Assembly: GCA_016936255.1 (NCBI GenBank)
Contig: JAFGYE010000056.1
Coordinates: 1-64,000, forward strand
DNA: 64,000 nucleotides
Source: Marinifilaceae bacterium
Lineage (GTDB): Bacteria; Bacteroidota; Bacteroidia; Bacteroidales; Marinifilaceae
Reading direction: 5' to 3'
A program made the position numbers and the translations under genes. The notes below the pieces were generated by a model. That model did not search any database. It was given only the letters and a program-made list of their open reading frames with translations, and was not told the origin of the DNA. How positions within the stretch are numbered: position 1 is the first letter of the stretch; each line of letters begins with the position of its first letter. Shown in pieces: positions 38,631 to 60,963 of this stretch.

Positions 38631-38641
38631 TCTATAAGTTA

Positions 38642-38669: not shown

Positions 38670-38687
38670 GATTTAAATAATTTCTTT

Positions 38688-39842: not shown

Positions 39843-39869
39843 TTTTGTTTATTTTGAGATTGTTATGTT

Positions 39870-41231: not shown

Positions 41232-41260
41232 CTATTGTAATTTTGATTCAATAAAAAAGC

Positions 41261-41300: not shown

Positions 41301-41307
41301 CTTCTAC

Positions 41308-42573
41308 TTATCTTTTAGATAAAACTTCTTTTTCGTAAGCTTGTATTTCTGCGATATAATCCTCGCTAACAGGTACTCCTTCTTGTAAACAGTAGTAATC
41401 CCAAACAGCACCAAATGGCTTTGTTTTCAACTCCTCAAAAAGTGCTAAACGTTCAAAATTCTGCCCGTTTTCTTCATATTTCACTAATGTAGAAGTAGGC
41501 TCCAACATAGCAATTATAAACGCTTTTTGTGCTGCACGTGTACCTACTACATAAGCACCAATACGATTGATAGAAGCGTCAAAAAAGTCAAGACCTACAT
41601 TTACGCGACCGATAAAGTCGTTACGTACTATTTCAGAAGCAATCAACTGTACTTCTTCGTTTAGTGTTACCACGTGATCAGAATCCCAGCGAACAGGACG
41701 TGTTACGTGAAGTAATACTTCGTCTACAAACTGAAGGCACGAAGAAATCTTATCGCCTACAACCTCTGTTGGATGGAAGTGACCATTATCCAAACAAATC
41801 ATTTTGTTGTTCTTGATAGCATATCCCAGGTAATAATCGTGTGAACCTACAGTCATAGACTCAGCACCTATACCAAATACTTTACTCTCAACAGCATCCT
41901 TCATGTATTCTTTTGGAAATTCTGCTGCGAAACCTTCATCAAGAGATTTAGTCAACTGTGAACGCATTCCGTTACGATCAACTGGTGTATCTTTAGAGCC
42001 ATCAGGAATCCAGGTATTCAATACACAAGGGCTTTCTAATTGTTTACCAACTTCAGCTGCAATTTCACGTGTACGCTTAAGGTGTTCTACCCAGAATTTA
42101 CGTATTTCTTCATCTTTAGAAGATAAAGTAAATCCACTATCAGCTTTAGGATGAGAGAAGAATGAACCATTAAAGTCCATACCAATACCTTGCTTTTTAC
42201 ACCAATCTATCCATCCTTGGAAATGCTTTACTTCAATAGCATCACGATCAGCAGCTCCACCAGAGAAGTCACCGTATAAAGCATGTACGTTTACGCGTTG
42301 CTTACCTGGCAGCAATGACATTACCTTTTCCAGATCAGCCATAATTTCAGTTATATTACGTGCTTTTCCAGGATAATTACCTGTAGCCTGAATACCACCG
42401 GAAAGTTGACCGTCAGGATTCTCAGTACCCGATACATCATCAGTTTGCCAACAGTGAAGACTGATTTTAATTTCATTGATTTTATTCAATACAGCTTCAG
42501 TATCAACACCTAAAGCTGCATACTGCTCCTTGGCCAACTCATAGGCCTTTTTAATCATTTCTTTATTTGCCAT
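41308..42573 (-). CDS. rhaA: L-rhamnose isomerase
   Basis: The 421-residue enzyme is full length for RhaA. Landmarks are IKISLHCWQTDDVSGTE near residue 35, GGIQATGNYPGKARN, MDFNGSFFSHPKADSGFTLS, the metal-binding CLDNGHFHPTEVVGDKIS, LHVTRPVRWDSDHVV, and VGLDFFDASINRIGAYVVGTRA. It converts L-rhamnose to L-rhamnulose in the cytoplasm. It lies 96 bases after rhaT on the same strand. Confidence 0.97.
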   Translation of the reverse strand: MANKEMIKKAYELAKEQYAALGVDTEAVLNKINEIKISLHCWQTDDVSGTENPDGQLSGGIQATGNYPGKARNITEIMADLEKVMSLLPGKQRVNVHALYGDFSGGAADRDAIEVKHFQGWIDWCKKQGIGMDFNGSFFSHPKADSGFTLSSKDEEIRKFWVEHLKRTREIAAEVGKQLESPCVLNTWIPDGSKDTPVDRNGMRSQLTKSLDEGFAAEFPKEYMKDAVESKVFGIGAESMTVGSHDYYLGYAIKNNKMICLDNGHFHPTEVVGDKISSCLQFVDEVLLHVTRPVRWDSDHVVTLNEEVQLIASEIVRNDFIGRVNVGLDFFDASINRIGAYVVGTRAAQKAFIIAMLEPTSTLVKYEENGQNFERLALFEELKTKPFGAVWDYYCLQEGVPVSEDYIAEIQAYEKEVLSKR

Positions 42574-42669
42574 AACACGTATATATTCTAAATAAAATAC
42601 TTCTTCTAATTCAACAGAAACAGGTGAATCATCTGAATTAATATTCTCTAAAACTTAAAAAAATGCCAT

Positions 42670-43740
42670 TTACATTGCATTCCCCAAACCAACAATCACC
42701 ACGGAAACAATAATAACGGCTATACCAATAGTTATCGTCCATTTTGTTTTAGGAGCTACTCCTTTCCATTCATTTCGGTAGATTCCCCACATATTCGCGG
42801 TTAGAATGATGGTGGACATATGAAGAATCCAGGAACTTGCACCATTCCCAAGTTTACTCTCGCCCATTCCGTAAAAGAAAAACTGAAGAAACCATGTGGT
42901 TCCGGCCAGTGCAGAAAACAAGATGTTATTCCGGATAGGTGTCGATTTATTTCCAAAATCTTTATAGGACTTATTTTTTAAACTTAAAATAGTAGTCCAT
43001 ATTAAATTGGTTGTTAAACCACCCCAAAGAATCACGACAAATGATACATTGTTTTGAAACAAGTGACTTGAACCTTCAAATAAATAATCGGGTAATAAGG
43101 CTGCCGATTCGGCCATGGTTTTACCTGCTTCAATACCAAAATTAAAGAATGAACTAAGGATACCAGATAAAATAGCGATCACTAAACCTTTCACCAAACT
43201 AAACTCTGCAACACTCTTTTTTTGATCCTCCTCGCTTAACTCACCTTCTTTCAACATTCCTGCATAACCACACAAGGCAATACCAATAAGACAAACTACT
43301 ACTCCAACTAACACTAATTGTCCCCCTGAAGAGGCCAACATATCGGTAAAAGAAACTTTCCCTGCTGTTGGATTAATATTGTAATATATGGAAGGAACGA
43401 TTGCGCCAAAAGCTGAACAAAACCCAAGAACTACCGAATTCCCTAATGACATGCCTAAATAACGAACACCTAAACCATAAGTAAGGCCGCCAATGCCCCA
43501 ACAAAGGCCTAATGTAAATGTAAGAGCAAAAATCTGGGATGAACTGGCTAAAATAATATCAAAAAAGCCTGGGATCGTTAAATATGCTGCTATTGGTGGT
43601 ACTATTAACCATGAGAATAAACCGCCAACAATCCAAAAGCTCTCCCATGCCCAGCCTTTTACTTTGTTAAAAGGCATGTAAAAACTACCTGATGCTACTC
43701 CACCTAATGAATGATAAATAATTCCTAATAACGCGTGCAT
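42670..43740 (-). CDS. rhaT: L-rhamnose:H+ symporter
   Basis: The 356-residue membrane protein has about ten hydrophobic segments and RhaT signatures: ALLGIIYHSLGGVASGSFYMPF at the N-terminus, WAWESFWIVGGLFSW, WGIGGLTYGLGVRYLGMSLG, and LAGTTWFLQFFFYGMGESKLG. It imports L-rhamnose with protons. It is the first gene of the operon, with a good promoter match upstream, and diverges from the AraC-family regulator. Confidence 0.96.
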   Translation of the reverse strand: MHALLGIIYHSLGGVASGSFYMPFNKVKGWAWESFWIVGGLFSWLIVPPIAAYLTIPGFFDIILASSSQIFALTFTLGLCWGIGGLTYGLGVRYLGMSLGNSVVLGFCSAFGAIVPSIYYNINPTAGKVSFTDMLASSGGQLVLVGVVVCLIGIALCGYAGMLKEGELSEEDQKKSVAEFSLVKGLVIAILSGILSSFFNFGIEAGKTMAESAALLPDYLFEGSSHLFQNNVSFVVILWGGLTTNLIWTTILSLKNKSYKDFGNKSTPIRNNILFSALAGTTWFLQFFFYGMGESKLGNGASSWILHMSTIILTANMWGIYRNEWKGVAPKTKWTITIGIAVIIVSVVIVGLGNAM

Positions 43741-44840: not shown

Positions 44841-46280
44841 TTAGTTTTTAATCCTTACATCTTTATTATTGCTAAGTTTTAACTTATTTTCCTTTACTCC
44901 CCGCACTTTAAAATCAGAAAACTTCCAGTTTCTTGCAAAGGATATATTCCCGGCATTATCTCCTTCGAAGCTAACATTCTTAAACTGAAAATTATCAATG
45001 GTACTTTCCTCTATTCCGGTTACCTTGATGCACGTTTGAGCATTAATGGCATGAATATTTTCAAAAAATACATTTTTGAATTTAGGCATGCCCTTTTCAG
45101 GTGGTACTACCCCTAATAATTTTTTCCAATGAATCGGTAACTCCTCATAATTATAACCTTCAGGCAATTTTGAATTGCTATAGGATGGATTCCAATTTAA
45201 GTTCACAACAAATGGATCTCTTACCCCATCCATTTGGATGTTATACATGTAAATATTTTCGATTGTACCTCCTCTTTGCGAAGTACTTTTAAATCGCAAA
45301 CCATATTTAGTTCCTAAGCCTTTCATGTTGTATATCAGTACATTTCTGATACTTCCTGAAGTTTCGCTTCCACAAGTAAACAAACCATCGCCACGGCCGG
45401 CAATACAATCACGAATCACAATATATTCACACGGACGATTTACTTTTAAACCATCAGAATCCCGTCCTGCTTTTAAGCAAAAATTATCGTCGTTACAATT
45501 TACGTAACAATTCTGCACCAGAATTCTGCTTGATGAATCAATATCGACGCCATCGGTACTAGGTCCTTTTCCTTCAATGTTATTATTGATCGTCATGCCT
45601 TGAACGGTTACGTATTCCGAATACAAAATATGAACAGACCAGAAACCAGCTTGATACAATACAAAATCTTTCAGCGTTACATCTTTTGAATTCTCAATAA
45701 TGATACCTCTTGGTCTTTTGCAATCGTAATCAACAACCCAACGCAAACCTTTCGGGTTATACTCGTCCCGCATGCTGTGATATTTGTCCCAAAATACTTT
45801 TCCTTTGCCATGAACAACACCATCACCAGTAATAGCCACATTATGCTGATCAATAATATTAATTAATCCTGCCGGCCAATCCATTTCAATACCCGCAACT
45901 CTTGTTGGAATTTCTTTATAGTCTTTAAGATCCTGACTTCCTGAAATCTGCACTCCTTTAGGAATTTCGAGAATTACGTTTGATTTTAAAAATATCGATC
46001 CTGTTAGGTAGATACCTGTTTTAAATCGAACAACACCACCTCCCAATTCAGCACATTTATCGATGCATGCCTGTATGGATTTGGTACACAATGTTACTCC
46101 ATCTCCAACGGCTCCAAAATCAGAAGGATCGTAGATTACTCCTCTTGAAACTGGTTGCGTTCTAGCCCCTACATCAGTAATCCAATCGCACTTCGAAAGA
46201 TCTAGCTCAAAATCCTGCCCCATACTTGAAATAGATATCATCAGGAATATTCCGATTAAACTAATTTGTTTCCAACTCAT
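44841..46280 (-). CDS. Secreted GH28 pectin hydrolase, atypical active site
   Basis: The 479-residue enzyme has a signal peptide (ISLIGIFLMISISSMGQ) and a parallel beta-helix starting DFGAVGDGVTLCTKSIQACID. GH28 aspartates are in place (GPSTDGVDIDSS and NCNDDNFCLKAGRDSDG). The third motif, normally G-H-G, reads GRGDGLFTCGSETSG, so the conserved His of polygalacturonases is missing. This suggests another linkage specificity, such as rhamnogalacturonan or a substituted galacturonide. It is the last gene of a three-gene operon, 45 bases after another GH28. Confidence 0.88.
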   Translation of the reverse strand: MSWKQISLIGIFLMISISSMGQDFELDLSKCDWITDVGARTQPVSRGVIYDPSDFGAVGDGVTLCTKSIQACIDKCAELGGGVVRFKTGIYLTGSIFLKSNVILEIPKGVQISGSQDLKDYKEIPTRVAGIEMDWPAGLINIIDQHNVAITGDGVVHGKGKVFWDKYHSMRDEYNPKGLRWVVDYDCKRPRGIIIENSKDVTLKDFVLYQAGFWSVHILYSEYVTVQGMTINNNIEGKGPSTDGVDIDSSSRILVQNCYVNCNDDNFCLKAGRDSDGLKVNRPCEYIVIRDCIAGRGDGLFTCGSETSGSIRNVLIYNMKGLGTKYGLRFKSTSQRGGTIENIYMYNIQMDGVRDPFVVNLNWNPSYSNSKLPEGYNYEELPIHWKKLLGVVPPEKGMPKFKNVFFENIHAINAQTCIKVTGIEESTIDNFQFKNVSFEGDNAGNISFARNWKFSDFKVRGVKENKLKLSNNKDVRIKN

Positions 46281-46325
46281 CTGTCTGTTTTTCTTATTAG
46301 TAATTGATTTTCTATTCTATTAATT

Positions 46326-47981
46326 TCAGTTCTTCAATTCAATTTTATCTTTTGGAAAACTGCCTGTTATTCCCTTAATCTGATTGATTTCTGTATTCCA
46401 AATTTCCAATCCTGTTTTCAAGTTCTCCGGATATGAAACATTCTCAAACTCTATGTTTGAAACATTTTCGACGATCATAGCTGGTCCCGAAAGTGACGAA
46501 ATGAAAACATTTTTCAGGCTAATATTTTCTGATTCACAGAATTTAGCACCTAATTGAGACGACATATAAACATTCTCAATTTGAATACCGCTGATTTTCA
46601 TTTCCGGCAGACCATTAAAAAACATAGCCCGTCGTGAATTTACAGATACAATATCCTTAAAATAAAGATTACGGAAACTTGGCGTTTCTTCATTTGCAAG
46701 AGGAATATTCGCTGACTCCCCATCAGATTTTTTGTCTCCTACGAGTTCAGCAGAAGGTGAATTTCCACCATAATATAAATTGAAAGAAAGCGCGTCAGTA
46801 ACAATATTTTGCATGCTAATGTTTGAAACATATATGTTCTCAACAACACCGCCTCTTCCTCTTCTGCTTTTAAAACGCAATCCAACATCAGTACCTAAAA
46901 ACGAGCAGTTACTTACTTTAATGTTTTTCACCCCGCCCGACATTTCACTACCAACAACAAAACCTCCGTGGCCTTTATACACAAAGCAATTATCAACAAT
47001 CACATTTTCGGTCGGAATTCCACGTTTGCGTCCATCTTCATCTTTTCCCGATTTAATGCAGATACCATCATCCCCTACATCAAATTTACTGTTTACAATA
47101 ATGGCATTTTCGCAGGACTCCAAATCAAGACCATCACCATTTTGAGCATAAGATGGGTTTCTAACGGTTACATTGTCAACAATTATATTTCTGCATAGTA
47201 GGGGATGAATATTCCAGCTGGGAGAGTTTGAAAAACAGACTCCCTGCAAAAGCACATTTTCACATTCGATCAAACTAATCATAACCGGACGCAGAAAATC
47301 TTTAATGGATTGCCATTCTTTCTCTGTCTTTACATTTCTTGGAACATTCATGTTGCTCACAGCATCACCTTTAAGTGATTTTTCACTGGGAAACCAATAA
47401 TCACTCCTTTTATAAGCACCTCCTTTTGCTGTTATTTTTTTCCATTGACTTTCGGTTACTTTTTGTTTTTTTACCGGTCGCCAAGCATCTCCGGATCCAT
47501 CGATACAACCTTGTCCTGTTATTGCAATATTTTTAAGATTCTTACCTGATACAGGCGATTGACAACGACGTGTATCGAGGCCCTCAAAACTGGTTTCCAC
47601 CAATGGATAATCGTTAAAGTCCCGGCTAAACTGAATCAAAGCTCCTTTTTCAAGATGAAGATTAATATTGCTCTTCAGTTCAATTGGTCCTGTTAACCAT
47701 ATCCCTTGAGGAACAAGCAAAGTTCCACCACCTTTTTCAGCCAATTCATCAATGGCCTTTTTGAATGCCACTGTATTTTTGAATTGCCCGTTACCAATAC
47801 CTCCAAAGGAGGTAATGTTTATTTCCCGATCGGGAAACTGCGGTGCATAAACGAAAGGCATGTTAAAAGGTAAATTTTCATATAAATATGAAAATCTATA
47901 AGACTCATTTTCTGCCTTTTCCGCACCTATGGAGCAACCCGCGAAAAAGATAAGCCAGATATATTTCGAAAATAATTTCAT
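46326..47981 (-). CDS. GH28 polygalacturonase, lipoprotein
   Basis: The 551-residue enzyme starts with a lipoprotein signal (YIWLIFFAGCSIG). Its beta-helix begins NITSFGGIGNGQFKNTVAFKKAIDELAEKGGG. All GH28 motifs are canonical: NGDGLDLES, VGDDGICIKSGKDEDG, and KGHGGFVVGSEMSGG with the catalytic-site His. A long insertion at about 165-230 resembles exo-polygalacturonases, which cap the cleft to act on chain ends. It lies 28 bases after the six-hairpin-like gene. Confidence 0.92.
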   Translation of the reverse strand: MKLFSKYIWLIFFAGCSIGAEKAENESYRFSYLYENLPFNMPFVYAPQFPDREINITSFGGIGNGQFKNTVAFKKAIDELAEKGGGTLLVPQGIWLTGPIELKSNINLHLEKGALIQFSRDFNDYPLVETSFEGLDTRRCQSPVSGKNLKNIAITGQGCIDGSGDAWRPVKKQKVTESQWKKITAKGGAYKRSDYWFPSEKSLKGDAVSNMNVPRNVKTEKEWQSIKDFLRPVMISLIECENVLLQGVCFSNSPSWNIHPLLCRNIIVDNVTVRNPSYAQNGDGLDLESCENAIIVNSKFDVGDDGICIKSGKDEDGRKRGIPTENVIVDNCFVYKGHGGFVVGSEMSGGVKNIKVSNCSFLGTDVGLRFKSRRGRGGVVENIYVSNISMQNIVTDALSFNLYYGGNSPSAELVGDKKSDGESANIPLANEETPSFRNLYFKDIVSVNSRRAMFFNGLPEMKISGIQIENVYMSSQLGAKFCESENISLKNVFISSLSGPAMIVENVSNIEFENVSYPENLKTGLEIWNTEINQIKGITGSFPKDKIELKN

Positions 47982-48009: not shown

Positions 48010-50136
48010 TTAAGGCATTACAGCCAAATTTTCCCATACCACATTCCAGGTTCCATCTTTGGGGAATCCAGGAGCAGTAATCGTATTGTTATCCCATCCT
48101 GCACACATCATTGCAACAGCAGTTAATAAGCCACCATTACCAGGCAGATAAACCCTTAAACGATCATCCTGATAATTATGACCATTAACTAAATAGGTGT
48201 TGGTTCGTTTGTCCATTAACAAAGCTTCCACTGCTTTTTCAGGTTCACCCAATCTGGCCGCGCACATCGCTGTCATTGGATAATCCCATCCCCATGTTTT
48301 GTCCCAATTCCATTTATCTAAAATCCAATTAAGGGTATTTTTCATATCATCCGGTCTTGCCAATTTGCATTGAGGCAAAATTCCCAAAGCACCCAATACG
48401 GCAGGATGATCGGAAGTAAAACGAATATCTTCGTATGTATCCAAGGCATCTTCTGCAGCCAGATACAAACCATCCTTTTCGGCTAGTGGCGATAATTTAT
48501 TGATTATATCATCCCATTTTTCATTTCTTTTTTCGCCTAAGCGTTCGCGCCAATTTTGGGCAACTGATAAGGCATAATGCCAATAAGACAACTCGAATGG
48601 CGGATTAATAGTTTCTGCAGCCCGCAATGATTCCTGAGCAGGAATAATTCCTTTCAGAACATACCTGTCTCCCTTCTCATCATAAGTGGCAAACGAGGCC
48701 ATAAATTCAGCTGTTGCATTCACCAGATCCTTGTACTTGGTAAGCACTTCTTCCGAAGGATGACTGCGGTATACCAGCTCGCTCATGTAAATAAAATGTG
48801 GTTGCTGCCAAATTAAAAACGAACCTACCGAAGAAGGTGCTTCAGTGGCCGAAGGATCGGTCATTTTCATCCAGCGAACTCCATCAAAGCCTTGTCGTTC
48901 GGCTATTTCTTTTGCTACTGGATAAGCTGTAGAATACCAATCCAGACTTCTCTCCAATAAATCAGTCCGGTTCCATAATGCAAATTGAACAGCATGCCAC
49001 CAGTGCATTTCCAAATGAAATTTACCGAACCAACTGTTGTAGGTTAAACCTGTTTCCTGCGGAGGAATGGATCCGGCACATTGTATCGCCATTAAATATT
49101 GAGATAAAATTACGCGTCGTTCCAATTCGTTCGCTCGGTTATCAGTACATTTCGAAAAATCAATGGCACCACCATTTTTCCAAAATGATTGCCAATATTC
49201 CGATGATTTCACAAGAACATTGTCTAAAGAATCTGTATTATCAGGTTTCTCTTTCGAATAGGCACAGGTAAAAGAAAATTGATTACTGCTTGGCGATAAA
49301 ACAAAATAATGAGGAGCTTTTTCATCCATCTGCGCCTTTCCTTCCCATTTAATTTTCACAAAATAACAGTCATTATCCAATGTTCGTTTCAACAGACAAA
49401 ATCCATCACCTTGAGAAACGACCTCCGTTTTATGTTTTTCGGGGACATCCCAATTGCTGGCATCATCTGAATGGTTTCCTGTTGGGTAAGGAAATTTAAA
49501 ATTGATTTTTAACTGAGCCTTACCAATAAGAGCTGATGATATTTGTGCCTGCACTTCATCTATAGATGGATGACAGGCTGTCTTCACCAAAACAGAATCA
49601 GAATCCAGTTTGAATTGACTAAGCAGCAGACCATCCCACAATTTCAATTCCTGATGAATATCAGTTACATCTTCAGGACTAACTGCACTTCCATCTTGAT
49701 GACTTAATTCCAATCCGATATAGCCTAAATGTAAACGATGCGGATTTTCCCTGAACCAGTTGGCTGCATCATGAGCTCTTCCATGAGTTTTACTTTGTAC
49801 GGCATACAACTCATCTTTTCCTCTAAAATTGTAGGTTTTTAAGGATTCTTCCGGCTTATAATTATTGGGATTAAGAAAACTATGCCATCCCCATTGCGAT
49901 TGAGTTCCTAAAGGAACCCCGTTTTTATAGTTGTTTGGAAATGTCTGCAATCCTGTGGCATCTGCCGTAAAAGCAAAATTTCCATTCCCAACCGATAAAG
50001 AACTTAATTCGTCAATTTTGGTTACGACCGGATTATTTCGTGTTACCAGTTCGTACCGGTTTATTTTTTCAGGCACTTTATTTTGACAGGCGAATAAGGC
50101 CAAACAGGCGATTCCGATTGGTAAAAATGGTTTCAT
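48010..50136 (-). CDS. Lipoprotein with six-hairpin (alpha/alpha barrel) glycosidase-like fold, unassigned
   Basis: The 708-residue protein has a lipoprotein signal (LPIGIACLALFACQNK). Residues 30-320 look like a beta-sandwich (ELVTRNNPVVTKIDELSSLSVGNGNFAF, GTQSQWGWHSFLNP). The C-terminal half is helical with Trp-rich motifs such as FHLEMHWWHAVQFALWNR and WNWDKTWGWDYPMTAMCAARLG, as in (alpha/alpha)6-barrel glycosidases related to GH65/GH95-type folds. I do not know an established family or reaction for it. It is the first gene of an operon with two GH28 enzymes, so a role on a pectic oligosaccharide is likely. Glu in the FHLEMHWW block is a plausible catalytic acid. Confidence 0.6.
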   Translation of the reverse strand: MKPFLPIGIACLALFACQNKVPEKINRYELVTRNNPVVTKIDELSSLSVGNGNFAFTADATGLQTFPNNYKNGVPLGTQSQWGWHSFLNPNNYKPEESLKTYNFRGKDELYAVQSKTHGRAHDAANWFRENPHRLHLGYIGLELSHQDGSAVSPEDVTDIHQELKLWDGLLLSQFKLDSDSVLVKTACHPSIDEVQAQISSALIGKAQLKINFKFPYPTGNHSDDASNWDVPEKHKTEVVSQGDGFCLLKRTLDNDCYFVKIKWEGKAQMDEKAPHYFVLSPSSNQFSFTCAYSKEKPDNTDSLDNVLVKSSEYWQSFWKNGGAIDFSKCTDNRANELERRVILSQYLMAIQCAGSIPPQETGLTYNSWFGKFHLEMHWWHAVQFALWNRTDLLERSLDWYSTAYPVAKEIAERQGFDGVRWMKMTDPSATEAPSSVGSFLIWQQPHFIYMSELVYRSHPSEEVLTKYKDLVNATAEFMASFATYDEKGDRYVLKGIIPAQESLRAAETINPPFELSYWHYALSVAQNWRERLGEKRNEKWDDIINKLSPLAEKDGLYLAAEDALDTYEDIRFTSDHPAVLGALGILPQCKLARPDDMKNTLNWILDKWNWDKTWGWDYPMTAMCAARLGEPEKAVEALLMDKRTNTYLVNGHNYQDDRLRVYLPGNGGLLTAVAMMCAGWDNNTITAPGFPKDGTWNVVWENLAVMP

Positions 50137-50511: not shown

Positions 50512-51381
50512 ATGAAATCAACAATCTTATCCATTGTATTATTTACAATGATCAGCTGTTCTGCAATAGGACAAAACCTTACCAATGCCAGCTTATTTCT
50601 TAGGAGCGACTCTGTTTACACCAATATGATTCAGGAAGAATCCGGTGACTTATACAAAACAATTGGACATCACGGACCTGCTGTTGAAAATGAATGGTTA
50701 GCACTTCGCTTGTATTTTAATAATAAAGCTACTTCGATTGATGTTTACAACAAACAAAAAAAAGGTCTCGAATTAAAAAATGCAAAATGGTATCCTTCCG
50801 AAAAAGAACAGAAAAAAGGTCTGGGTGCTGATTATTATAAAGTAGGATCTACAGTGGGACTTGGAGGTGTTCGCCTTTGGGATGGAGAAAATGTAGTGCT
50901 TTTAGCTCCTGTTTCGAATCGTATTGCCACGGTTAAAAAGGAAGCCACTTATTCTCAAATGGAAATGTTATCAAAAGATGTTCCATATAAAGGAAAAAAG
51001 ATAGATGTATTGGTTCGTGTAACCGCTTACACCGGAATTCGGGAAATGAGAGTGGAAGCTTTTGCTTTAACAGATGAGGATGTTCAGTTTGTTACCGGAA
51101 TTAACTACCACAGAGGGCAAAAAGTTGAAAAAGCCGATAATTATATGATTGCATGGGGTTATCATCCTGAAGATGTGGCCGCAGAAAAGATTCAAGTTGG
51201 AGCTGCAATAATGATTAATCCAGATGATTATCAGGACAGAAAAGATGATGGGAAACAACAACTTTACATCTCGAAACCGACAAAATACCTAAGCACGTGG
51301 GTAACATCCACTATTGAAAAAGATAAAAAAATGGGAACCTTTGAAAAATTTAAAGCATACGTTGGTAAAACTAAAAAATAA
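50512..51381 (+). CDS. Secreted DUF4861-like protein
   Basis: The 289-residue protein has a signal peptide (ILSIVLFTMISCSAIGQ). The conserved features GPAVENEWLALRLYFNNKATSIDVYNK, GLGGVRLWDGENV and RVTAYTGIREMRVEAFAL resemble the DUF4861 family, found near pectin lyases and GH105-type genes in Bacteroidota. No biochemical function is firmly known to me. It is the only rightward gene among the pectin enzymes and shares a bidirectional terminator with the esterase operon. Confidence 0.65.
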   Translation: MKSTILSIVLFTMISCSAIGQNLTNASLFLRSDSVYTNMIQEESGDLYKTIGHHGPAVENEWLALRLYFNNKATSIDVYNKQKKGLELKNAKWYPSEKEQKKGLGADYYKVGSTVGLGGVRLWDGENVVLLAPVSNRIATVKKEATYSQMEMLSKDVPYKGKKIDVLVRVTAYTGIREMRVEAFALTDEDVQFVTGINYHRGQKVEKADNYMIAWGYHPEDVAAEKIQVGAAIMINPDDYQDRKDDGKQQLYISKPTKYLSTWVTSTIEKDKKMGTFEKFKAYVGKTKK

Positions 51382-51437: not shown

Positions 51438-53684
51438 TCACTCCTGTTCAAGTATCGATTTTATTGTATCCGCCCAAATTTGATATCCTTTCTCTGTCGG
51501 ATGACAATAATCTTGAGCCATTTCTCTTGTCAAAACTCCATCTGGACTTACCAATTTCGGACCAATATCTACTAATTTAATGCTATTTTTCTTTGCAAAT
51601 TGCTCCAATTTGATATTGATTTTATTAATTAACTGTCGTCTCGGATGATCAGGTTTTTCTTCCCTTGGAAAAACAGACATTAAGATGATTTTAGCTCCAG
51701 GAACTTTGGATCGAACACATGAGTATACGGCCACAATCCCCTCCACAATTTCTTCAACCGTATTTGCCCGGGCATTAGATGTCTGACTGGTATTATTCGT
51801 ACCGATATGAATGATTACAGTCCGGGGATGCAAACCATCCAATTCTCCATGATCCAAACGCCACAAAACATTCTGTGTGCGATCCCAGCCAAATCCCAAA
51901 TTTAAAACCCGGTATTTGTTAAACAGATTGTTCCATGAAATAGGACCATTGGATTTTCGGGCTCTGCCATCAGCGTATTTTAAATCAGGTTTGCCTCCCC
52001 AAAAATGAGTGATCGAATTACCGATTAAAACAATTTCGGGATTGATTGAGTCTTTAATTGCCAGCACATCATTGTGTCTGTCCCACCAATTGTAACTGTC
52101 TTGTTCCAATTTTGAAACCGGTACGATAGCCGTATTGCTGTTAATTTCAGTATCCAATACCTTGTCGTTCATCAATTGCGACAACAATGGCTCCATTGAT
52201 TGAGCCCACAATTTTGCTCCCAGAGGCGTAGGATGCAACCAGTCAGACATCAACTCATGCTTGATTGAACCATCCAAATTGAGAAACAGATGGTTTACAT
52301 CACAATAGAATACATGCTTCCGGTCACTTAACTTAGAAATTAGATCGGCTGATCTGTCAAGAATGGCACGATGAGAAGTTGGATTGGGGCCATCGTAACT
52401 ACCTGGAAATGGTCTCAAAAGCACAATCTTAGTTTCGGGCAAACGAGTTCTAATCTCTTTTACAATTGCTTCAATACCTCCTGCCACTTGCGATGCCGTA
52501 TGCCGGGTAGGATAATGCTTTTCATCCACGTTGTTTGTGCCTACTTCGAGTATAATCGCCTTGGGAGATTGTCCATTAAGTATTCCCTTTTGAATATTCC
52601 ATAAAATATTTTCGGTTCGGTACCCGCTAAAACCCAAATTTACAGCATTTCTTGGAGCAAAAAACTGATTCCACACCTCTTGGTATTGTGTCTTTTCAAA
52701 ATTGTTAATGATCGAATTGCCCATCAATATCAAATCATATTTATTGTGTGCTATCAATTTCAGTTTTTCAGCCAAACGTCCCTTATTATAGCCCTCGGCA
52801 GGTATTGTTGCTGGATTCACATCAGTTTCAACTGACATTTTACTACATTCCATAGAGTTTTGAATGAAATGCTTCAATTGAAACTCTTCAGCTATTGGAT
52901 TGATATTTTCTCCTGCCAAATAAGTACTGTCTTTTATCACTTTCAACACGGCTCGCCCATCATAACCAATCCATGTTTTGTAATAATCAATACACCTTGT
53001 TTTGTTTTCAACTTGATCGTTTTCATTTACCAGCAAAAACAAATCAGATTCTGGATTCGTGGGAGGCATAATTGTCGGATACACAGTACCAGTCATACAT
53101 TTATCCATACCGGTTGGTGAAATCAGAATTAACTTTTCAGGTTGCTCGCCCTTATTCAATCTCCCGACTGCCTTTGCTGTAAGATTAGCTCCGGCAGAAA
53201 AACCAATAATAACCTTAGGGGAGTTGCTAAAACCAAGCTTCTCAAAATTATTTTTCAAATACTGACAGGCTGTCAATACATCATTCTCTGCCAAATTTTG
53301 AATGCAGGATTCTGTCCCGATGTGATAATCAAGTACTGCAACATCATACCCATTTTCAGTAAGAAAACGAGCTACCTTGATACCTTCCTGTTTGGTATAT
53401 ATGGAACTAAAATCGCCTCCGGGAACTACTAAAACCGTTCCTTTAGACATTTTTGTGCAGGTTCTAAAAATCCGGAACATCGGACTGTTCAGATGATGAA
53501 TAATTCCATCCTTTTCAATTTTATTTCCTTGTAAGACTTTTTCACCTGATATCAATAAAAATTTAGAATTCTCTACATTCTGCCCTACTGCCTGAGCCAT
53601 AATCACTTCTCCTACAAATAGCAGAACAATCAATAAAATAAAAATACCAAAGTCTGGAATAGAGTTATTTATATATTTTTTCAT
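51438..53684 (-). CDS. Triple-hydrolase fusion: alpha/beta-hydrolase plus two SGNH esterase domains
   Basis: The 748-residue secreted protein (signal peptide ending near VIMAQ) has three hydrolase modules. Residues ~45-275 are an alpha/beta-hydrolase with nucleophile elbow GFSAG (Ser163) and an oxyanion-type VVPGGDF. Residues ~300-505 are an SGNH domain with Ser324 (MGNSI), GTNN at ~382, and DWLHP (Asp481, His484). Residues ~520-748 are a second SGNH domain with Ser557 (IGNSITHFWGG), GTNN at ~628, and DYCHP (Asp725, His728). All three active sites look intact. Downstream of PL11 in the pectin operon, it probably removes acetyl or methyl esters from rhamnogalacturonan or homogalacturonan fragments; the exact esters are unknown. 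Confidence 0.85.
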   Translation of the reverse strand: MKKYINNSIPDFGIFILLIVLLFVGEVIMAQAVGQNVENSKFLLISGEKVLQGNKIEKDGIIHHLNSPMFRIFRTCTKMSKGTVLVVPGGDFSSIYTKQEGIKVARFLTENGYDVAVLDYHIGTESCIQNLAENDVLTACQYLKNNFEKLGFSNSPKVIIGFSAGANLTAKAVGRLNKGEQPEKLILISPTGMDKCMTGTVYPTIMPPTNPESDLFLLVNENDQVENKTRCIDYYKTWIGYDGRAVLKVIKDSTYLAGENINPIAEEFQLKHFIQNSMECSKMSVETDVNPATIPAEGYNKGRLAEKLKLIAHNKYDLILMGNSIINNFEKTQYQEVWNQFFAPRNAVNLGFSGYRTENILWNIQKGILNGQSPKAIILEVGTNNVDEKHYPTRHTASQVAGGIEAIVKEIRTRLPETKIVLLRPFPGSYDGPNPTSHRAILDRSADLISKLSDRKHVFYCDVNHLFLNLDGSIKHELMSDWLHPTPLGAKLWAQSMEPLLSQLMNDKVLDTEINSNTAIVPVSKLEQDSYNWWDRHNDVLAIKDSINPEIVLIGNSITHFWGGKPDLKYADGRARKSNGPISWNNLFNKYRVLNLGFGWDRTQNVLWRLDHGELDGLHPRTVIIHIGTNNTSQTSNARANTVEEIVEGIVAVYSCVRSKVPGAKIILMSVFPREEKPDHPRRQLINKINIKLEQFAKKNSIKLVDIGPKLVSPDGVLTREMAQDYCHPTEKGYQIWADTIKSILEQE

Positions 53685-53813: not shown

Positions 53814-56078
53814 TTAAAGCGTATTGTTTTCTCCAGTGAATCTCACATGAATACTATCCGCAAATACGCATCCCTTATAAAAAACCTGCAGCTTAACTTT
53901 AATCGCTTGATCTGCTGAATAATCTTTCGCCTTTAGAGTCAGCGACCTGTCTGAATTTATCTCTGCCTCGTTTACTGTCCAAATATACTTATCGTAATCG
54001 TAGCCGGCATCCAAAGTGTAAGTTTCCTGCGAGCATGTAATTGTATCAAGAATAATTCGTTGAGCTTCATGGTAACGTGCATTCATGCCATTGGCTTTTC
54101 CATCATTGGCTTTTCCCGATTTTGAACGAGCTCCTCTTTGAAGCCGGTATTCATTGTTCCAAAATTTCCCTAAATCAGATCCCAAATAAAAACCTGGTTG
54201 TGTAGGTTGATTGTAGCTTATGTTTTGATCAGCCACGCTAAGCCGGTAGATATGATCACTCAGCAAGGTGTGAAAACGATAAGGAGTGCTGTAATTGGTC
54301 ATGTACAAACGAAGTTCTTTGTTATCTTTTGTTCGCACCAGAATTTCTTCACGCCAATCTCCCACAATGTCGGCTTGAAGACAAGGATTCCCTTTTGTCC
54401 AGTTGTTAGCGCTTAAGTCTTCACTTAAAGGGATAGGTAAATTTATTACACCATCCCCAGTCCATTTTGTGATGCCAACAAATTCGCGGCCAGTAACACT
54501 CGATCCATCCAGCAATTCACGGTTTAAATCACCATCCCACCAAATGCCCATATTAATTGACGGAGTGTTTTCAGTAATAAATTTTCCATTGGCTGTATAA
54601 ACACCTCCTGAATGAGTTGTCCACAATTCACAGCCTTTAAATCTTGGATCAATATCAGCAGCCATAGCTCTTCCAACATCTTCGAAAGAAGGAATGCCCC
54701 AAATATACTCCCCTGTACAGGCATCACGTAATTCCGATCCGGCCTTAGTCGGAACGTGTTCATGACAATCCCAAACTTCCAGTCCCGGCCGTTCTATATC
54801 AATATCCGTTAAATGCAAAGCATCACCATGCCCCAGCTGTGTATTGTAACCACCTGTTCCATCTGCATTAATCAAACAAGCACCATAGGTAATTTCATCT
54901 TTACCATCTCCATTTACATCACCAATACTTAATTGATGATTTCCTTGTCCTTCGAAACTTTTGTATTCTCCATTGTTATCGGTTGTGCTAAAATGCCAGC
55001 GTTGCGTTAATTTCCCATCTCTGTAATCCCAGGCTTCCAGTACTGTTTTCTCGTAATAGCCTCTACATATTAGAATACTCGGACGCATTCCATCAAAATA
55101 CCCCACTCCTCCTAAAAAACGATCCACACGATTGCCAGTTCTGTCACCAAAATCATTTGGAGCCCCTCTTGAAATGTAATTTGCTCTGGCCAGCTCTTTC
55201 CCTGTTGCCCCTTCTATAACGGAGAAAAACTCAGGGCCATGCATTATTTTTCCATAAGTCCGAGAAGCAGAATCCCTATCCACATAATCACGAACACCAT
55301 CCTTATTTACGTCACCAATTACCTGTCCATCTCCAAATTGAGTTCCTTCTGCTGTTTTAACTGCAATTTCAGCTTTTCCATCCCCATCAAAATCGTATGC
55401 CATCATTTGAGTATAATGAGCACCTTGCCGGATATTAATTCCCAAATTAACGCGCCACAAAAATGTTCCGTCAAGTTTGTAAGCTTCCAGCAGCGGGCCT
55501 CCATTACACACACCGTTGTGCGAATTATCATGACCGCTATTTTCACGTTTTAGTACAATGTCCAATTCTCCGTCTCCATCCAAATCGGCCACAGTTGCAT
55601 CGTTGGGACTGTATTGCCATAAACTGTCACCGGGAAATGCTTGTATTGGAATTGATAAGTATGGATGATCGGCCATTTGCGGCGTGAGTACATAAGAAGC
55701 CAGCATACGATGTGTTTCTGCATCTTTTAAAACATAGGTTGTTGATGTTTTTGTATTTGCTAAGCTATCTTTAATAAAGGTACTTGTGGCTATTGGAGTT
55801 TTATTAAGCTTACGCTCTTTTTCGTTATTATCGATACAGTAAACGTCAAATTGTGTTTCGTCTTTATCTTTTGGAAGAAATCTCCAGCTTACCGCTACAA
55901 TTCCATTTCCCTGATGAATGGCAACTAATCCTCTCCCCAAATTTTCCTTTTGAATAGATGGAGCATAATTTGGTCCTTTTACTATTTGGGAAGGTGTTTT
56001 TGTGCAACAGGATTGCAGCACACCACAAAGAATCAGAATAAGAATTTTATCTGCAAACGAACCTAATGAATTAAACAT
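53814..56078 (-). CDS. PL11 rhamnogalacturonan lyase, secreted
   Basis: The 754-residue protein has a lipoprotein-like signal (ILILCGVLQSCC). The PL11 body starts NLGRGLVAIHQGNGIVAVSWRFL and contains an eight-bladed propeller rich in calcium loops: DLDGDGELD, DFDGDGKAE, DVNKDGVRD, DVNGDGKDE. Other family marks are GAHYTQMMAYDFDG and GDWREEILVRTKDN. PL11 enzymes cleave the rhamnose-galacturonate backbone of RG-I by beta-elimination. A C-terminal ~100-residue Ig-like extension (SQETYTLDAGYDYDKYIW) is added to the standard length. The unsaturated products are substrates for the GH105 in the same operon. Confidence 0.93.
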   Translation of the reverse strand: MFNSLGSFADKILILILCGVLQSCCTKTPSQIVKGPNYAPSIQKENLGRGLVAIHQGNGIVAVSWRFLPKDKDETQFDVYCIDNNEKERKLNKTPIATSTFIKDSLANTKTSTTYVLKDAETHRMLASYVLTPQMADHPYLSIPIQAFPGDSLWQYSPNDATVADLDGDGELDIVLKRENSGHDNSHNGVCNGGPLLEAYKLDGTFLWRVNLGINIRQGAHYTQMMAYDFDGDGKAEIAVKTAEGTQFGDGQVIGDVNKDGVRDYVDRDSASRTYGKIMHGPEFFSVIEGATGKELARANYISRGAPNDFGDRTGNRVDRFLGGVGYFDGMRPSILICRGYYEKTVLEAWDYRDGKLTQRWHFSTTDNNGEYKSFEGQGNHQLSIGDVNGDGKDEITYGACLINADGTGGYNTQLGHGDALHLTDIDIERPGLEVWDCHEHVPTKAGSELRDACTGEYIWGIPSFEDVGRAMAADIDPRFKGCELWTTHSGGVYTANGKFITENTPSINMGIWWDGDLNRELLDGSSVTGREFVGITKWTGDGVINLPIPLSEDLSANNWTKGNPCLQADIVGDWREEILVRTKDNKELRLYMTNYSTPYRFHTLLSDHIYRLSVADQNISYNQPTQPGFYLGSDLGKFWNNEYRLQRGARSKSGKANDGKANGMNARYHEAQRIILDTITCSQETYTLDAGYDYDKYIWTVNEAEINSDRSLTLKAKDYSADQAIKVKLQVFYKGCVFADSIHVRFTGENNTL

Positions 56079-56150: not shown

Positions 56151-57584
56151 TTAGTGAGCTTCGAATGGATTTTCTACCAAGTTGCCATCTACTCTTACGC
56201 GATCAACATCGCAATTTTTCACATCATCCAGCACAAATAAGGGACGTGCATCCTTTTGCTCAAAATAAAATCTGATATTCTCGAAAAATATATTTTCAGC
56301 ATGTCTCACATAAAAACCAGAAGCTGGAATTGTTCCAAACATCCAAGGTTCCGGATATGTTTTTTCACTTTCAGGAGGTACAATTTTCCCATCTTCTGCA
56401 GTGTAGCCTCCTTTAAAATGAATATTGATATTTGAAAAAGAAACTTCCTCAACCTTGTGACCAGGCACACCACTTATGATATTTGAAAATTGCGAATCGG
56501 CATTGTAAACATTCACATTACTGATTTGAACTCTTCGCAGCTTTCCAACGGGAGTGCCTTTCGGACTGCGCTGACGTGCTCCCAAGCGAATGAAAAATGG
56601 AGAATTGCCCACATTTCTCATCGTAATATTCGAGATAACTACATCTTCGAGCCAACCTCCGTCAACAGCCTCAATGGCCAAACCTCTGCTTCGTTCGAAA
56701 ATACAATTGGTAATAGCAATATTTTTAAAACCTCCACTTGACTCGGTTCCTAATTTAATACGTCCGGTATTTGAACCGTGATCAGGAGCTACAGCCTCGT
56801 CGGTTTCCCACTTCGCCGTCAATACAGATCCTTTATCGTAACCAGAAACAAAACAACCATTGACAGTAACGTTCTCGGTATCTTTAAAATATCCCAAAGC
56901 ATAACTCGATTTTAGAACAATGGCATCGTCCCATGGGCAATTTACACTGCAATCGGAAATACGTACGTTTTTACAGCAATCAATATCAAACCCATCGCGG
57001 TTCGTATCTACTTTAAGATTGAGTACGTGCAAATTATCTACTCCTGTTGCTAAAATGGCAAAATGACCGCAGTTTAGCATCGCTACATCCTTTACGGTAA
57101 TGTTGTGGCACTCCTTAAACGACAATGCTTTATTTCCAACTCCCTCTAGCCGACTTTCTTCTCTTGTTAAGCCTTGTCCATTAATTAATCCATTACCGCA
57201 GATCGTTATATCGTGCTCATTAACAGCCCAAAATAAGGAATTTTTCCAGTGGCTATGTCCAAAGTCCTGAAAAGAATTATCCGGATTTGATTCAGCAATA
57301 TCATAACCTTCCTTTTCGGAAGGAAAAGCCGCTAAAACTGTAGCACCGGATTCAATTTGAATAGTAATATTACTTTTTAAACGAATGGAATAGCAGGCAT
57401 ATGTTCCAGCAGGTATATAAATGGTTCCTCCTCCATTTTGAGTCGCCTCTTCAATAGCACTGTTAATGGCAGGAGAATCAATGGTAACACCATCACCCTT
57501 AGCTCCAAAATCTTTAATATTATAAGTTTCGGCCTTTAAAGTGATACCGTAGAGTAATGCAATAAGCAGGAATAATTGTCGCAT
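56151..57584 (-). CDS. Secreted GH28 rhamnogalacturonan/pectin hydrolase
   Basis: The 477-residue enzyme has a signal peptide (MRQLFLLIALLYGITLKAE) and begins its helix with YNIKDFGAKGDGVTIDSPAINSAIEEATQNGGGTIYIPAGTY. Catalytic aspartates are in NRDGFDIDCC and CPWDDAIVLKSS. The polygalacturonase G-H-G motif is absent; instead the region reads GRIKLGTESSGG. That pattern, and placement between a PL11 lyase and RG esterases, fits a GH28 acting on rhamnogalacturonan rather than homogalacturonan. It lies 12 bases after the DUF4450-like gene. Confidence 0.88.
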   Translation of the reverse strand: MRQLFLLIALLYGITLKAETYNIKDFGAKGDGVTIDSPAINSAIEEATQNGGGTIYIPAGTYACYSIRLKSNITIQIESGATVLAAFPSEKEGYDIAESNPDNSFQDFGHSHWKNSLFWAVNEHDITICGNGLINGQGLTREESRLEGVGNKALSFKECHNITVKDVAMLNCGHFAILATGVDNLHVLNLKVDTNRDGFDIDCCKNVRISDCSVNCPWDDAIVLKSSYALGYFKDTENVTVNGCFVSGYDKGSVLTAKWETDEAVAPDHGSNTGRIKLGTESSGGFKNIAITNCIFERSRGLAIEAVDGGWLEDVVISNITMRNVGNSPFFIRLGARQRSPKGTPVGKLRRVQISNVNVYNADSQFSNIISGVPGHKVEEVSFSNINIHFKGGYTAEDGKIVPPESEKTYPEPWMFGTIPASGFYVRHAENIFFENIRFYFEQKDARPLFVLDDVKNCDVDRVRVDGNLVENPFEAH

Positions 57585-58347: not shown

Positions 58348-59559
58348 TTAGTTTCCGTCTGGTTTTTGAATTTCAGCAAAAGGTGTTGGATACCATTTAA
58401 AATTCTTGAAATCGTCAGGCTTTGCAGGATTAAAATCCTTTACATCGTCTCTTAAATACTGCACCAAAGGCAAATGAATTTGTTTCATACCATACACAAC
58501 ACATTTTGCAATTTGATCAGCACCAAAAGGATTAAAATGAGTGTTGTCTTTTAAAGGCGTATCCTGATTTGGGAAGGTATTGGCCGGATAATGAACAAAT
58601 GCATTCACTGAATTTTCTATCCCCATGGCTTCATAAAGAGTGCGCGTATAAGAGTGCAAATCAATCAAAGAAATATTTTCTTCGGCGGCCAGTTCTCTCA
58701 TCGCATCCGGGTAATCCATATGTGTGTCACCAATTTTCCCTTCCTCGTTAAAACTTCTGCGTTGAGTTGGGGTAACAAAAACAGGATTTGCTCCTTTTTC
58801 CCGGGCCGCAGCAATAAAATCTTTTAATCGATCCGTAAAATTAAGATAAGCTCCCTTCCCCTCTCCTCTTTCCTTCTGATCATTATGACCAAATTCAACA
58901 AATATGTAATCACCAGGCTTAACCTGCGTTAATAATTTCTCTAATCTTCCTCTGGCAATAAAACCACTTGCAGTTTCTCCGGATTCGGCATAGTTAGCAA
59001 AACAAACATCATCACTAAAAAAAGAAGGGATGATCTGCCCCCAGGAACACCACGGCTCGTTTTCCTGATCAACAACAGTTGAATCTCCGCATAAAAAAAC
59101 AGTAAGAGCAGAATCTGAAGGTGCTATTTCGATAGAAACAACCTGAGGAGACCCGCCGTTAAATTCAAAAGTCAGATTGCTATCCCAATTTAATTTGGTC
59201 TTTTCTCTTTCTTTGATTTTAACATTCCTTCCCGCTGTGATAATCGTATCTCTTTTATTGATATAGAAATAAACATCTTTAAATTCTCCTTTCTGAGTGA
59301 ATATTCCGGTATAAAACATTCTTCTGGATTCCCCTCTGATCACGGTATGTCCTTCACTGATTTCAGATCCGACTCTCACATGTACTTTGTAATTTCCATC
59401 CGGTACATCTTTAAAAGTAACAAAACCGTTATTTGCTTTGCTTAAAGGATTCATGATCTTAAACTGGCTGTCTTTTTCACTACACGACTGAAATACCATG
59501 ATTAAAACTACCACGATCATACATGCGGAGAGCTTCCTATTTACATTTCTAAAACTCAT
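58348..59559 (-). CDS. Rhamnogalacturonan acetylesterase, CE12 SGNH type
   Basis: The 403-residue protein has a lipoprotein signal (IVVLIMVFQSCSEKD), an N-terminal beta-sandwich (FVTFKDVPDGNYKVHVRVGSE, residues ~30-145), and a CE12 SGNH domain. Visible blocks are FLCGDSTVVDQ (Ser nucleophile), ANYAESGETASGF, FVEFGHNDQK, and the Asp/His dyad in DNTHFNPFGA. CE12 enzymes remove acetyl groups from galacturonate in rhamnogalacturonan. It is the second gene of the operon, 12 bases after GH105. Confidence 0.93.
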   Translation of the reverse strand: MSFRNVNRKLSACMIVVVLIMVFQSCSEKDSQFKIMNPLSKANNGFVTFKDVPDGNYKVHVRVGSEISEGHTVIRGESRRMFYTGIFTQKGEFKDVYFYINKRDTIITAGRNVKIKEREKTKLNWDSNLTFEFNGGSPQVVSIEIAPSDSALTVFLCGDSTVVDQENEPWCSWGQIIPSFFSDDVCFANYAESGETASGFIARGRLEKLLTQVKPGDYIFVEFGHNDQKERGEGKGAYLNFTDRLKDFIAAAREKGANPVFVTPTQRRSFNEEGKIGDTHMDYPDAMRELAAEENISLIDLHSYTRTLYEAMGIENSVNAFVHYPANTFPNQDTPLKDNTHFNPFGADQIAKCVVYGMKQIHLPLVQYLRDDVKDFNPAKPDDFKNFKWYPTPFAEIQKPDGN

Positions 59560-59571: not shown

Positions 59572-60726
59572 TTATTTGAAATCTTGTAATTTATATACTT
59601 CTACCCCAGCTAACAGAAAACAGCCAATACCATAATCCTCAAAATCAGGCATACTGTCGTATAATACCGGCTGTCCGTCTTTAGGTTCTTTTCCAGTGCC
59701 CTGTACATAGCCTAAAAATCCATTTTCGTGAATGGCATCCTTCACAATCGCATTCCATGCTTTTGCAACAACAGGCAGATACTTTTCTTTTGACAACAGC
59801 CCATTATTGATTCCCCATGCCATACCATATATAAATAAAGAAGTACCTGTCACCTCTTTTCCACCATAATTTTCAGCATCATGTAAACTCGCATTCCAAA
59901 ATCCATCTTTTCTCTGACATTTTACCAATGCCTTTGTCATGGACATAAAATCATTCACATAATTCTTATAATGCTTTTCGTCTTTCGGTATTTCGCTTAA
60001 TACTCTTACCAAAGCAGCATATACCCATCCGTTGCCTCTTGACCAATAACAATCTTCACCGTTTGGCTCTTTATAAGGAGGAACAAAATCCGCATCGCGC
60101 CACCACAAACCATCTTCCCTGTTATAAAGACCTCCTCCAATATCATTTCTGCTGCAGGCATACATATCCCACATTTTATCAAAATACTTAGCATCATTCA
60201 TTGTGGCACCATACTTCGCAAAAACCGGCATTCCCATTTGGATAGCATCAATCCATGTCCAATCATCCTTTTGTGGTGTATTCACCAACATATCTAAATT
60301 TGCTTTTACCTTTCGAAGGTATTTTGCGTCATTAGATAATCGATACAAATCGATATAGGTTTGACCGGCACAATAATCATCTGCATTTCTGGTGGTTGTA
60401 CCGTTTCTAAACCCCCACTTATGAAAATCGGACCATTGATAAGCATAATCATACAATTTTTCTTCCGGCAATATTGAATACAAGGACATTAATCCTTCAT
60501 AATAGACCCCTCTCGTCCAAATATTGCTTGGTCTTTCCCGCCCCACATTCGATGGTGCTTTATAATCACTGTATTTTTCCATGAAATAATTATTCACTTT
60601 AATTATTTCTTTCAAAGTTTGTTCATGATCTATCAATTTCTGCCCCAAAACCGGAGAATAATTCATCGATGTTGTGACAATCAGTAATATAAATTGCAAC
60701 AAATACATTCTGCTCAATAATCCCAT
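59572..60726 (-). CDS. GH105 unsaturated rhamnogalacturonyl/galacturonyl hydrolase
   Basis: The frame extends to 60774, but the start at 60726 begins a normal signal peptide (MGLLSRMYLLQFILLIVTTS), and a -7-like element lies inside the longer version. The (alpha/alpha)6-barrel shows GH105 motifs: RERPSNIWTRGVYYEGLMSLY, NADDYCAGQTYIDLYRL, DDWTWIDAIQMGMPVFAKYG with the catalytic Asp, and RGNGWVYAALVRVL. GH105 removes the unsaturated uronate left by pectin or RG lyases, here PL11. It is the first gene of the RG-I operon, which runs on through CE12, DUF4450-like, GH28, PL11 and the triple esterase. Confidence 0.93.
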   Translation of the reverse strand: MGLLSRMYLLQFILLIVTTSMNYSPVLGQKLIDHEQTLKEIIKVNNYFMEKYSDYKAPSNVGRERPSNIWTRGVYYEGLMSLYSILPEEKLYDYAYQWSDFHKWGFRNGTTTRNADDYCAGQTYIDLYRLSNDAKYLRKVKANLDMLVNTPQKDDWTWIDAIQMGMPVFAKYGATMNDAKYFDKMWDMYACSRNDIGGGLYNREDGLWWRDADFVPPYKEPNGEDCYWSRGNGWVYAALVRVLSEIPKDEKHYKNYVNDFMSMTKALVKCQRKDGFWNASLHDAENYGGKEVTGTSLFIYGMAWGINNGLLSKEKYLPVVAKAWNAIVKDAIHENGFLGYVQGTGKEPKDGQPVLYDSMPDFEDYGIGCFLLAGVEVYKLQDFK

Positions 60727-60755
60727 TCTATTTGATATTTTAGATATTTTTGCAC

Positions 60756-60763
60756 CAAATATA
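60756..60763 (-). promoter_or_regulatory. Candidate -7 element of the RG-I operon
   Basis: The minus strand reads TATATTTG, matching TAnnTTTG, 30 bases upstream of the preferred GH105 start. A TTTTTTG tract lies 16 bases further upstream, slightly closer than the usual 19-21 base spacing. Confidence 0.35.
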
Positions 60764-60963
60764 TTGCATCCCATTTCTGCAAAAAAGGAAAATTATACAC
60801 ATCCCTAGAAAATCATCCACAACACAAAAACCTTAAAATAAATACATGTTTTAGTACTATTTTCCATTTTTTGTCGTGTACGCCCACAGTATTTTTACAG
60901 CCATTGAACAAGCTGATTCGTAACTCAAGCTTCAATCTATGTTTAATCTATTAAAAAGTTTTT

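Follow-up and report, generated by a model that had tools for sequence, protein, structure and literature searches.

A probable two-site fused esterase with an alpha/beta-hydrolase pseudoenzyme domain in a rhamnogalacturonan I cluster of a Marinifilaceae bacterium

Introduction

The 64,000-nucleotide stretch of DNA analyzed here (hereafter, the window) contains a gene whose product carries an alpha/beta-hydrolase (ABH) domain followed by two SGNH domains. A sequence-only reading of this gene had described one polypeptide with three intact esterase active sites that could strip several esters from pectin. The locus therefore raises the question of how many of the three sites retain the residues required for hydrolysis, and of what a domain without them would be kept for.

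Overall architecture of the three-domain protein

The reading of the open reading frame (ORF) as an ABH domain and two SGNH domains was borne out by the ORF, its translation and the Pfam matches. The gene and its parts are as follows:

51438..53684, minus strand: three-domain esterase gene (ORF and translation, 748 aa, ATG start, TGA stop; full-length homologues)
53586..53684, minus strand: probable signal peptide, residues 1-33, a hydrophobic N-terminal segment (hydropathy)
52830..53564, minus strand: ABH domain, residues 41-285, AxeA1/BD-FAE-like (Pfam, NCBIfam, hhalign)
52170..52754, minus strand: SGNH1, residues 311-505, triad Ser324-Asp481-His484, with Asn384 (PAF-AH Ib match, column check)
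52050..52169, minus strand: conserved linker between SGNH1 and SGNH2, residues 506-545 (identity)
51441..52049, minus strand: SGNH2, residues 546-748, triad Ser557-Asp725-His728, with Asn630, and Trp600 in the Gly74 column (Pfam, column check)

Pfam revealed Lipase_GDSL_2 in two stretches (E 1.6e-47), BD-FAE (PF20434) at residues 83-170 (E 6.4e-08; 32.8 bits against a cut-off of 26.8) and Abhydrolase_3 at residues 112-206 (E 1.1e-06). This search, which the sequence-only reading had proposed as a check, recovered the three domains, but the BD-FAE match spanned only positions 15-104 of the 215 in the model and would thus stop short of the part that should hold the Asp and the His. The homologue L039 (identical to L005) gave 24.0 bits with BD-FAE, under the cut-off, and Abhydrolase_3 over its own cut-off. 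Among solved structures, the SGNH part was closest to the subunits of platelet-activating factor acetylhydrolase Ib (PAF-AH Ib; 1es9, E 1.3e-33 in a whole-protein search), and the ABH part showed weak matches to MGS-M1 (4q3k, E 4.3e-05) and to some esterases. Predicted structures, both built on five-row alignments, were poor models, with a mean pLDDT of 52.1 for the full protein and 34.0 for the ABH domain alone, and they lend no support to the reading of the ABH domain given below.

The highest 15-residue mean hydropathy of the protein was 3.17, starting at residue 14, and the end of the putative signal segment was placed at residue 33 as a guess. There was no Cys in residues 1-45 and thus no lipobox. 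From this hydrophobic N-terminus, Cys-free over its first 45 residues, the protein is likely to be exported. The linker between the two SGNH domains was 75% identical to that of the homologue L008 and 95-100% identical within the genus Labilibaculum, to which the window belongs judging by the identity of its protein with the homologue L041.

Distribution of the three-domain layout

Homologues with all three domains over the full length came from Labilibaculum (L005, L006 and L007, 88.8-89.6% identical), from a Prolixibacteraceae MAG (L008, 55-56% identical; genome G450) and from two further genomes of the same order (L089 and L090). When identical copies were merged (L038 with L007, L039 with L005, L040 with L006, and L041 with the window protein), seven distinct sequences remained, namely the window protein, L005, L006, L007, L008, L089 and L090.

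Outside Labilibaculum, the ABH-SGNH-SGNH layout turned up in three Bacteroidota genomes and in no others among those searched. Five of the nine Labilibaculum genomes carried it, two of these five being one species, and none of the remaining family genomes did (56 family genomes searched). The 198 genomes drawn from the order, with up to five candidates scored per genome, yielded two further cases. With the two best candidates scored per genome, the 395 phylum genomes yielded only the window's own and the 398 genomes from the family of G162 yielded none; these samples overlap, and their genome counts are not additive. SGNH1 alone, searched against 395 class genomes, gave seven matches at 1e-15, in which the non-window frames were 248-608 aa long and hence too short. 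The few occurrences across the family, order, class and phylum samples indicate that the layout is rare.

Both SGNH domains retain their catalytic residues

The residues named in the sequence-only reading (Ser163 in GFSAG, Ser324 with Asp481/His484, and Ser557 with Asp725/His728) were all present at the positions given, and the two SGNH domains with their triads were recovered in all seven three-domain proteins. Both domains matched the PAF-AH Ib columns Ser47, Asn104, Asp192 and His195, which we take to be the catalytic positions, in 7/7 proteins. In SGNH1, Ser324, Gly354, Asn384 and Asp481/His484 were kept throughout, save that the Gly74 column (Gly354 in the window) was Gly in six proteins and Ala in L090. 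In SGNH2, Ser557, Asn630 and Asp725/His728 were likewise kept in all seven, and the Gly74 column was Trp in every one; the Gly73 column, two columns from Trp600, kept its Gly.

All 17 rows of the clade to which SGNH2 belongs had the same Trp at the Gly74 position of Block II. The clade comprised the seven SGNH2 domains, the stand-alone protein L009 and nine C-terminal domains of GxDLY tandem esterases, and every row kept the Ser, Asn, Asp and His. Because it is present in every row, Trp600 is a family trait, and judging from this alignment its occurrence in place of Gly is probably not a defect. Such a Trp in the oxyanion loop is unusual and characterises this clade.

We considered whether a single SGNH domain might be catalytically important while its partner binds substrate, a role that could fall to SGNH2 with its Trp600. 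The replacement of Gly by Trp in all SGNH2 rows would fit such an arrangement, as would the stronger conservation of SGNH1 than of the other domains within the genus (97.4-99.5% identity), but the retention of the four catalytic residues in all 17 Trp-bearing rows argues against it. Moreover, the backbone amides of the loop would serve whatever the side chain, and the available part of one report describes a characterised esterase with Ala instead of the Block II Gly (PMC9487903). We regard this arrangement as unlikely.

SGNH1 and SGNH2 shared 27% identity over 200 columns. In a tree of 45 rows, SGNH1 formed its own clade (100/100), the placement of which was an open fork, and SGNH2 grouped with the C-terminal domains of the tandem proteins (99/94) with SGNH1 outside, when the root was assumed to lie outside the SGNH2 group. 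A recent tandem duplication was rejected on these two grounds, and the two domains appear to come from separate lineages that were fused. The sequence-only reading had also argued that the pair is not a decaying duplication; this holds for the two SGNH domains, though not for the reason it gave, since what separates them is that SGNH2 groups away from SGNH1. The two sites, of different lineage, perhaps also differ in specificity. L009, a stand-alone protein of 285 aa with 66% identity to SGNH2, fell inside the SGNH2 clade (96/77, at a fork that was not starred); it may have been excised from a longer, three-domain protein or may predate the fusion.

The ABH domain lacks the catalytic histidine

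Upon alignment of the ABH domain with its relatives, three positions of the active site were assigned:

53196..53198, minus strand: Ser163, ABH nucleophile position in the GFSAG motif; Ser in 6/7 three-domain proteins, Ala in L008 (alignment)
53016..53018, minus strand: Asp223, ABH acid position; Asp in 6/7 three-domain proteins, Gly in L008 (alignment)
52920..52922, minus strand: Tyr255, column of the ABH catalytic His; Tyr in 6/7 three-domain proteins, Thr in L008 (alignment)

The catalytic-His column contained His in 18/18 relatives and in none of the seven three-domain proteins, on which four MAFFT modes agreed. The nucleophile column contained Ser in all 18 relatives and in six of the seven, and the acid column contained Asp in 17 relatives (Pro in L004) and again in six of the seven. 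The set of relatives initially comprised 15 sequences and reached 18 when the near-duplicates L044, L070 and L075 were restored; the ABH domains of L085, L088, L111 and L112, which are of another type, lie outside this count. In most relatives this loop has the sequence GGHG, which is replaced by DSTY in the window protein and by DSxY in five other three-domain proteins.

Comparison of the ABH domain with its relatives by hhalign gave a probability of 99.7% and an E-value of 1.7e-25 in local mode, with the alignment stopping before the loop. In global mode, a two-residue gap lay opposite the His of the relatives, and the query had no His there. Pfam and hhalign thus revealed fold-level homology to the BD-FAE/AxeA1-like esterases, but the Ser-Asp-His triad of these enzymes was incomplete, with the His absent in all seven proteins. 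The BD-FAE structure has a triad of Ser128, Asp237 and His269, as given in the accessible text of that report (PMC8165983). Replacement of the catalytic His by another His was rejected. The four His of the window ABH domain were not kept across homologues (His121 and His272 were not His in L007, and His63 and His64 were not His in L090 or L008), and no His common to all seven ABH domains was found in the alignment of the seven.

These results contradict the earlier statement that all key residues remain, for which only the Ser of the ABH domain had been given, and with it the description of three intact active sites. The absence of the His from all seven sequences points to its loss before they diverged. 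In L008 (L008:3619-5850), the Ser and the Asp were also replaced (Ala163 and Gly223) and the PGG loop had lost its second Gly; this ABH domain represents a further stage of decay, in which the rest of the site was lost after the His.

Conservation of the ABH domain

The ABH domain was the least conserved of the three; between the window protein and L008, identity was 33% in ABH, 70% in SGNH1 and 69% in SGNH2. Among four Labilibaculum proteins (six pairs), dN/dS was 0.16-0.27 in ABH, 0.019-0.063 in SGNH1 and 0.07-0.40 in SGNH2. The dN of ABH (0.049-0.098) equalled or exceeded that of SGNH2 (0.011-0.049), and dS was 0.18-0.51 in ABH compared with 0.09-0.23 in SGNH2, an inequality that weakens the comparison of dN/dS between domains and of which recombination may be the cause. 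The ABH domain is under purifying selection with a looser constraint than SGNH1, and SGNH1 is the only domain from which this test clearly sets it apart, since the dN/dS of SGNH2 overlaps and its dS differs. A Y-KTW-GYDG patch away from the ABH site was common to all seven three-domain proteins. This pattern of conservation fits retention of the domain for something besides ancestral hydrolysis.

The retention of both Ser163 and Asp223 in six of the seven proteins would be needless for a purely structural domain and argues against a pseudoenzyme. Together with Tyr255, these residues were retained as a set in six proteins and lost as a set in L008. One reading that would accommodate this is that the ABH domain has turned into a carbohydrate-ester reader, or a slow Ser-Asp-Tyr hydrolase, that positions acetylated RG-I for the two SGNH sites; we give it a small probability, similar to that of a single important SGNH domain. 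Slightly less probable still is an ABH domain that remains enzymatic through a rebuilt site, made of Ser163, Asp223 and Tyr255 or using another base. The joint retention and joint loss of the three residues speak for such a site, but they come from few independent lineages, as four of the seven proteins belong to one genus and L089 and L090 are close, and a BD-FAE-like enzyme in which Tyr does the work of the His is not known to us. Activity of all three domains, stripping acetyl esters at O2 and O3 and methyl esters at C6, is the least probable reading, because Ser163 in GFSAG, Asp223 and purifying selection on the ABH domain are outweighed by the absence of the His in 7/7 proteins and of the Ser and Asp as well in L008, and because we found no sequence evidence tying either fold, in any of the three domains, to the removal of methyl esters.

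Genomic context

The proposal that a single polypeptide with several esterase-type domains sits in a pectin (RG-I) and rhamnose cluster was supported by its neighbours:

37329-43740: rhamnose catabolism genes (class II aldolase, Fe-ADH, FGGY kinase, RhaA, RhaT)
44841..47981, minus strand: two more GH28 genes, 44841-46280 and 46326-47981 (domain match)
50512..51381, plus strand: DUF4861 protein, on the opposite strand to the esterase gene (domain match)
53814..56078, minus strand: rhamnogalacturonan lyase, PL11 type (Pfam RGL11_C, E 1.8e-183)
56151..57584, minus strand: GH28 (domain match)
58348..59559, minus strand: single SGNH esterase (Pfam Lipase_GDSL_2; NCBIfam PaeY weak, E 2.6e-13, 49.5 bits against a cut-off of 1000)
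59572..60774, minus strand: Glyco_hydro_88, unsaturated-uronyl hydrolase type (domain match)

The cluster also contained a DUF4450 gene. The single SGNH esterase is possibly a rhamnogalacturonan acetylesterase, putatively of family CE12. In L005, L006 and L007, six orthologues of the window's neighbours (Glyco_hydro_88, SGNH, DUF4450, GH28, PL11 and DUF4861) lay beside the gene and were 84-99% identical. The 8-kb flanks of these three loci contained no orthologue of the gene at 48010-50136 or of the two GH28 genes at 44841-47981, for which the best match there was 24%, to the other GH28. The gene at 48010-50136 encodes a 708-aa protein with a weak match to the NCBIfam kojibiose hydrolase model (E 0.0014) and no Pfam match over the cut-off; its product is possibly an unassigned glycoside hydrolase.

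The neighbours of L008 were of GH78, GH59 and GH38 types (four of the six other ORFs of at least 150 aa scanned), and those of L108 included SusC/SusD, a rhamnosidase-like protein and two beta-helix proteins (five of six ORFs over 200 aa scanned). L109 had a GH2 neighbour and no pectin gene among the five of ten ORFs over 200 aa that were scanned. Rhamnose or pectin chemistry was thus present in three of the four contexts and absent from the scanned part of L109. Because the contexts of L109 and L008 differ, we infer RG-I as the substrate rather than assign it. Elsewhere in the window, a cluster at 12083-32849 (GH43, SASA-type esterase, GH10, MFS transporter, GH115, SusC/SusD and GH67) looks directed at glucuronoxylan.

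Proposed function

In our judgement, the gene probably equips an RG-I (pectin) degradation cluster with a fused esterase, secreted or periplasmic, in which two sites are catalytic and the ABH domain is a pseudoenzyme. After secretion, both SGNH domains would hydrolyse esters, presumably of the acetyl type, through Ser-His-Asp triads, with Ser324 and Ser557 as nucleophiles and His484/Asp481 and His728/Asp725 as the His-Asp pairs. The oxyanion hole would be formed by the Ser, the Block II backbone amides, and Asn384 or Asn630. Given the neighbouring genes, these sites probably deacetylate the RG-I backbone or its fragments, which would clear the way for the PL11 lyase, GH28 and Glyco_hydro_88 enzymes encoded nearby. 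The ABH domain would derive from an AxeA1-like esterase whose catalytic His was already gone when the seven known sequences split, and would have been kept as a non-hydrolytic module, most likely for binding substrate or for holding the two SGNH domains.

A GFSAG-type nucleophile motif alone is not enough for an esterase domain to be active, and the annotation of multi-esterase proteins needs a check for the His. If the ABH domain is a binding module, the protein would provide a natural esterase pseudoenzyme that aids live esterases on the same chain. Pseudoenzymes are important for pectin digestion in beetles, where GH28 proteins are concerned, according to the accessible text of one report (PMC6549527).

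Comparison with known and related esterases

One close counterpart was the model of AxeA1 (NF042968, 459 positions), an acetylxylan esterase according to the model name; no paper on AxeA1 was found among the matches listed from the open-licence PubMed Central literature. Its N-terminal part matched the window ABH domain (E 1.7e-20, in three stretches). The model also matched the ABH-SGNH proteins L078, L081 and L083 (four stretches each, 141-158 bits), and its positions 274-457 matched SGNH domains on their own, which indicates that it covers an ABH plus an SGNH domain. In contrast to AxeA1, the window protein reached 72.8 bits against the equivalog cut-off of 700, lacked the ABH His and had an extra second SGNH domain; L078, L081 and L083 likewise fell below 700 bits. 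The Pfam family PF20434, which matches the window ABH domain, is named after BD-FAE, a bifunctional feruloyl/acetyl xylan esterase that keeps its His; it is described as an alpha/beta-hydrolase, and the text searched mentions no SGNH domain (PMC8165983).

Fused esterases of other families are known in print. As described in the available text of the report, Fll4 from Flavimarina sp. Hel_I_48 carries three carbohydrate-esterase domains on one polypeptide from a marine polysaccharide utilization locus, and one of the three was inactive on all substrates tried (PMC12247016). Unlike the window protein, it has a CE6 and two CE1-like domains around a central domain, in another order, and acts on xylan (PMC12247016). 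Natively fused CE6-CE1 acetyl-feruloyl esterases from polysaccharide utilization loci of Bacteroides ovatus and Flavobacterium johnsoniae, with intramolecular synergy in the B. ovatus enzyme, differ from the window protein in their two catalytic domains, xylan substrates and families, as far as the accessible text goes (PMC7110780). The earlier remark that no characterised enzyme has this three-part layout stands for the exact ABH-SGNH-SGNH order, for which none was found among the matches listed from the open-licence PubMed Central literature, but multi-esterase proteins as such are not new. The layout with a His-less ABH domain is a variant of the fused esterases, one of which has an inactive third domain.

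The GxDLY-GDSL_3-SGNH tandem esterases (about 600 aa, L010) also have two SGNH domains after an N-terminal accessory domain, and it is their C-terminal SGNH domain that groups with the window SGNH2. They differ in carrying GxDLY (PF14607) as the accessory domain and Lipase_GDSL_3 (PF14606) as the first SGNH domain.

L085 and L088 have the order SGNH-ABH-SGNH, that is, three esterase-type domains of the same two folds in another order. Their middle domain matched Peptidase_S9, over the cut-off in L085 and under it in L088. Inspection by eye revealed Ser, Asp and His motifs in all three domains of both proteins (L085:805-2913, 702 aa; L088:7819-9945, 708 aa), which on these motifs look more promising as true three-site esterases than the window protein does. 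In L111 and L112, an ABH domain was followed by another SGNH-like domain, as judged by eye. ABH and SGNH esterase modules, as these domain orders show, are commonly shuffled in these bacteria. In a 974-aa protein at L087:10561-13485, an SGNH domain is fused to an alpha-L-fucosidase domain.
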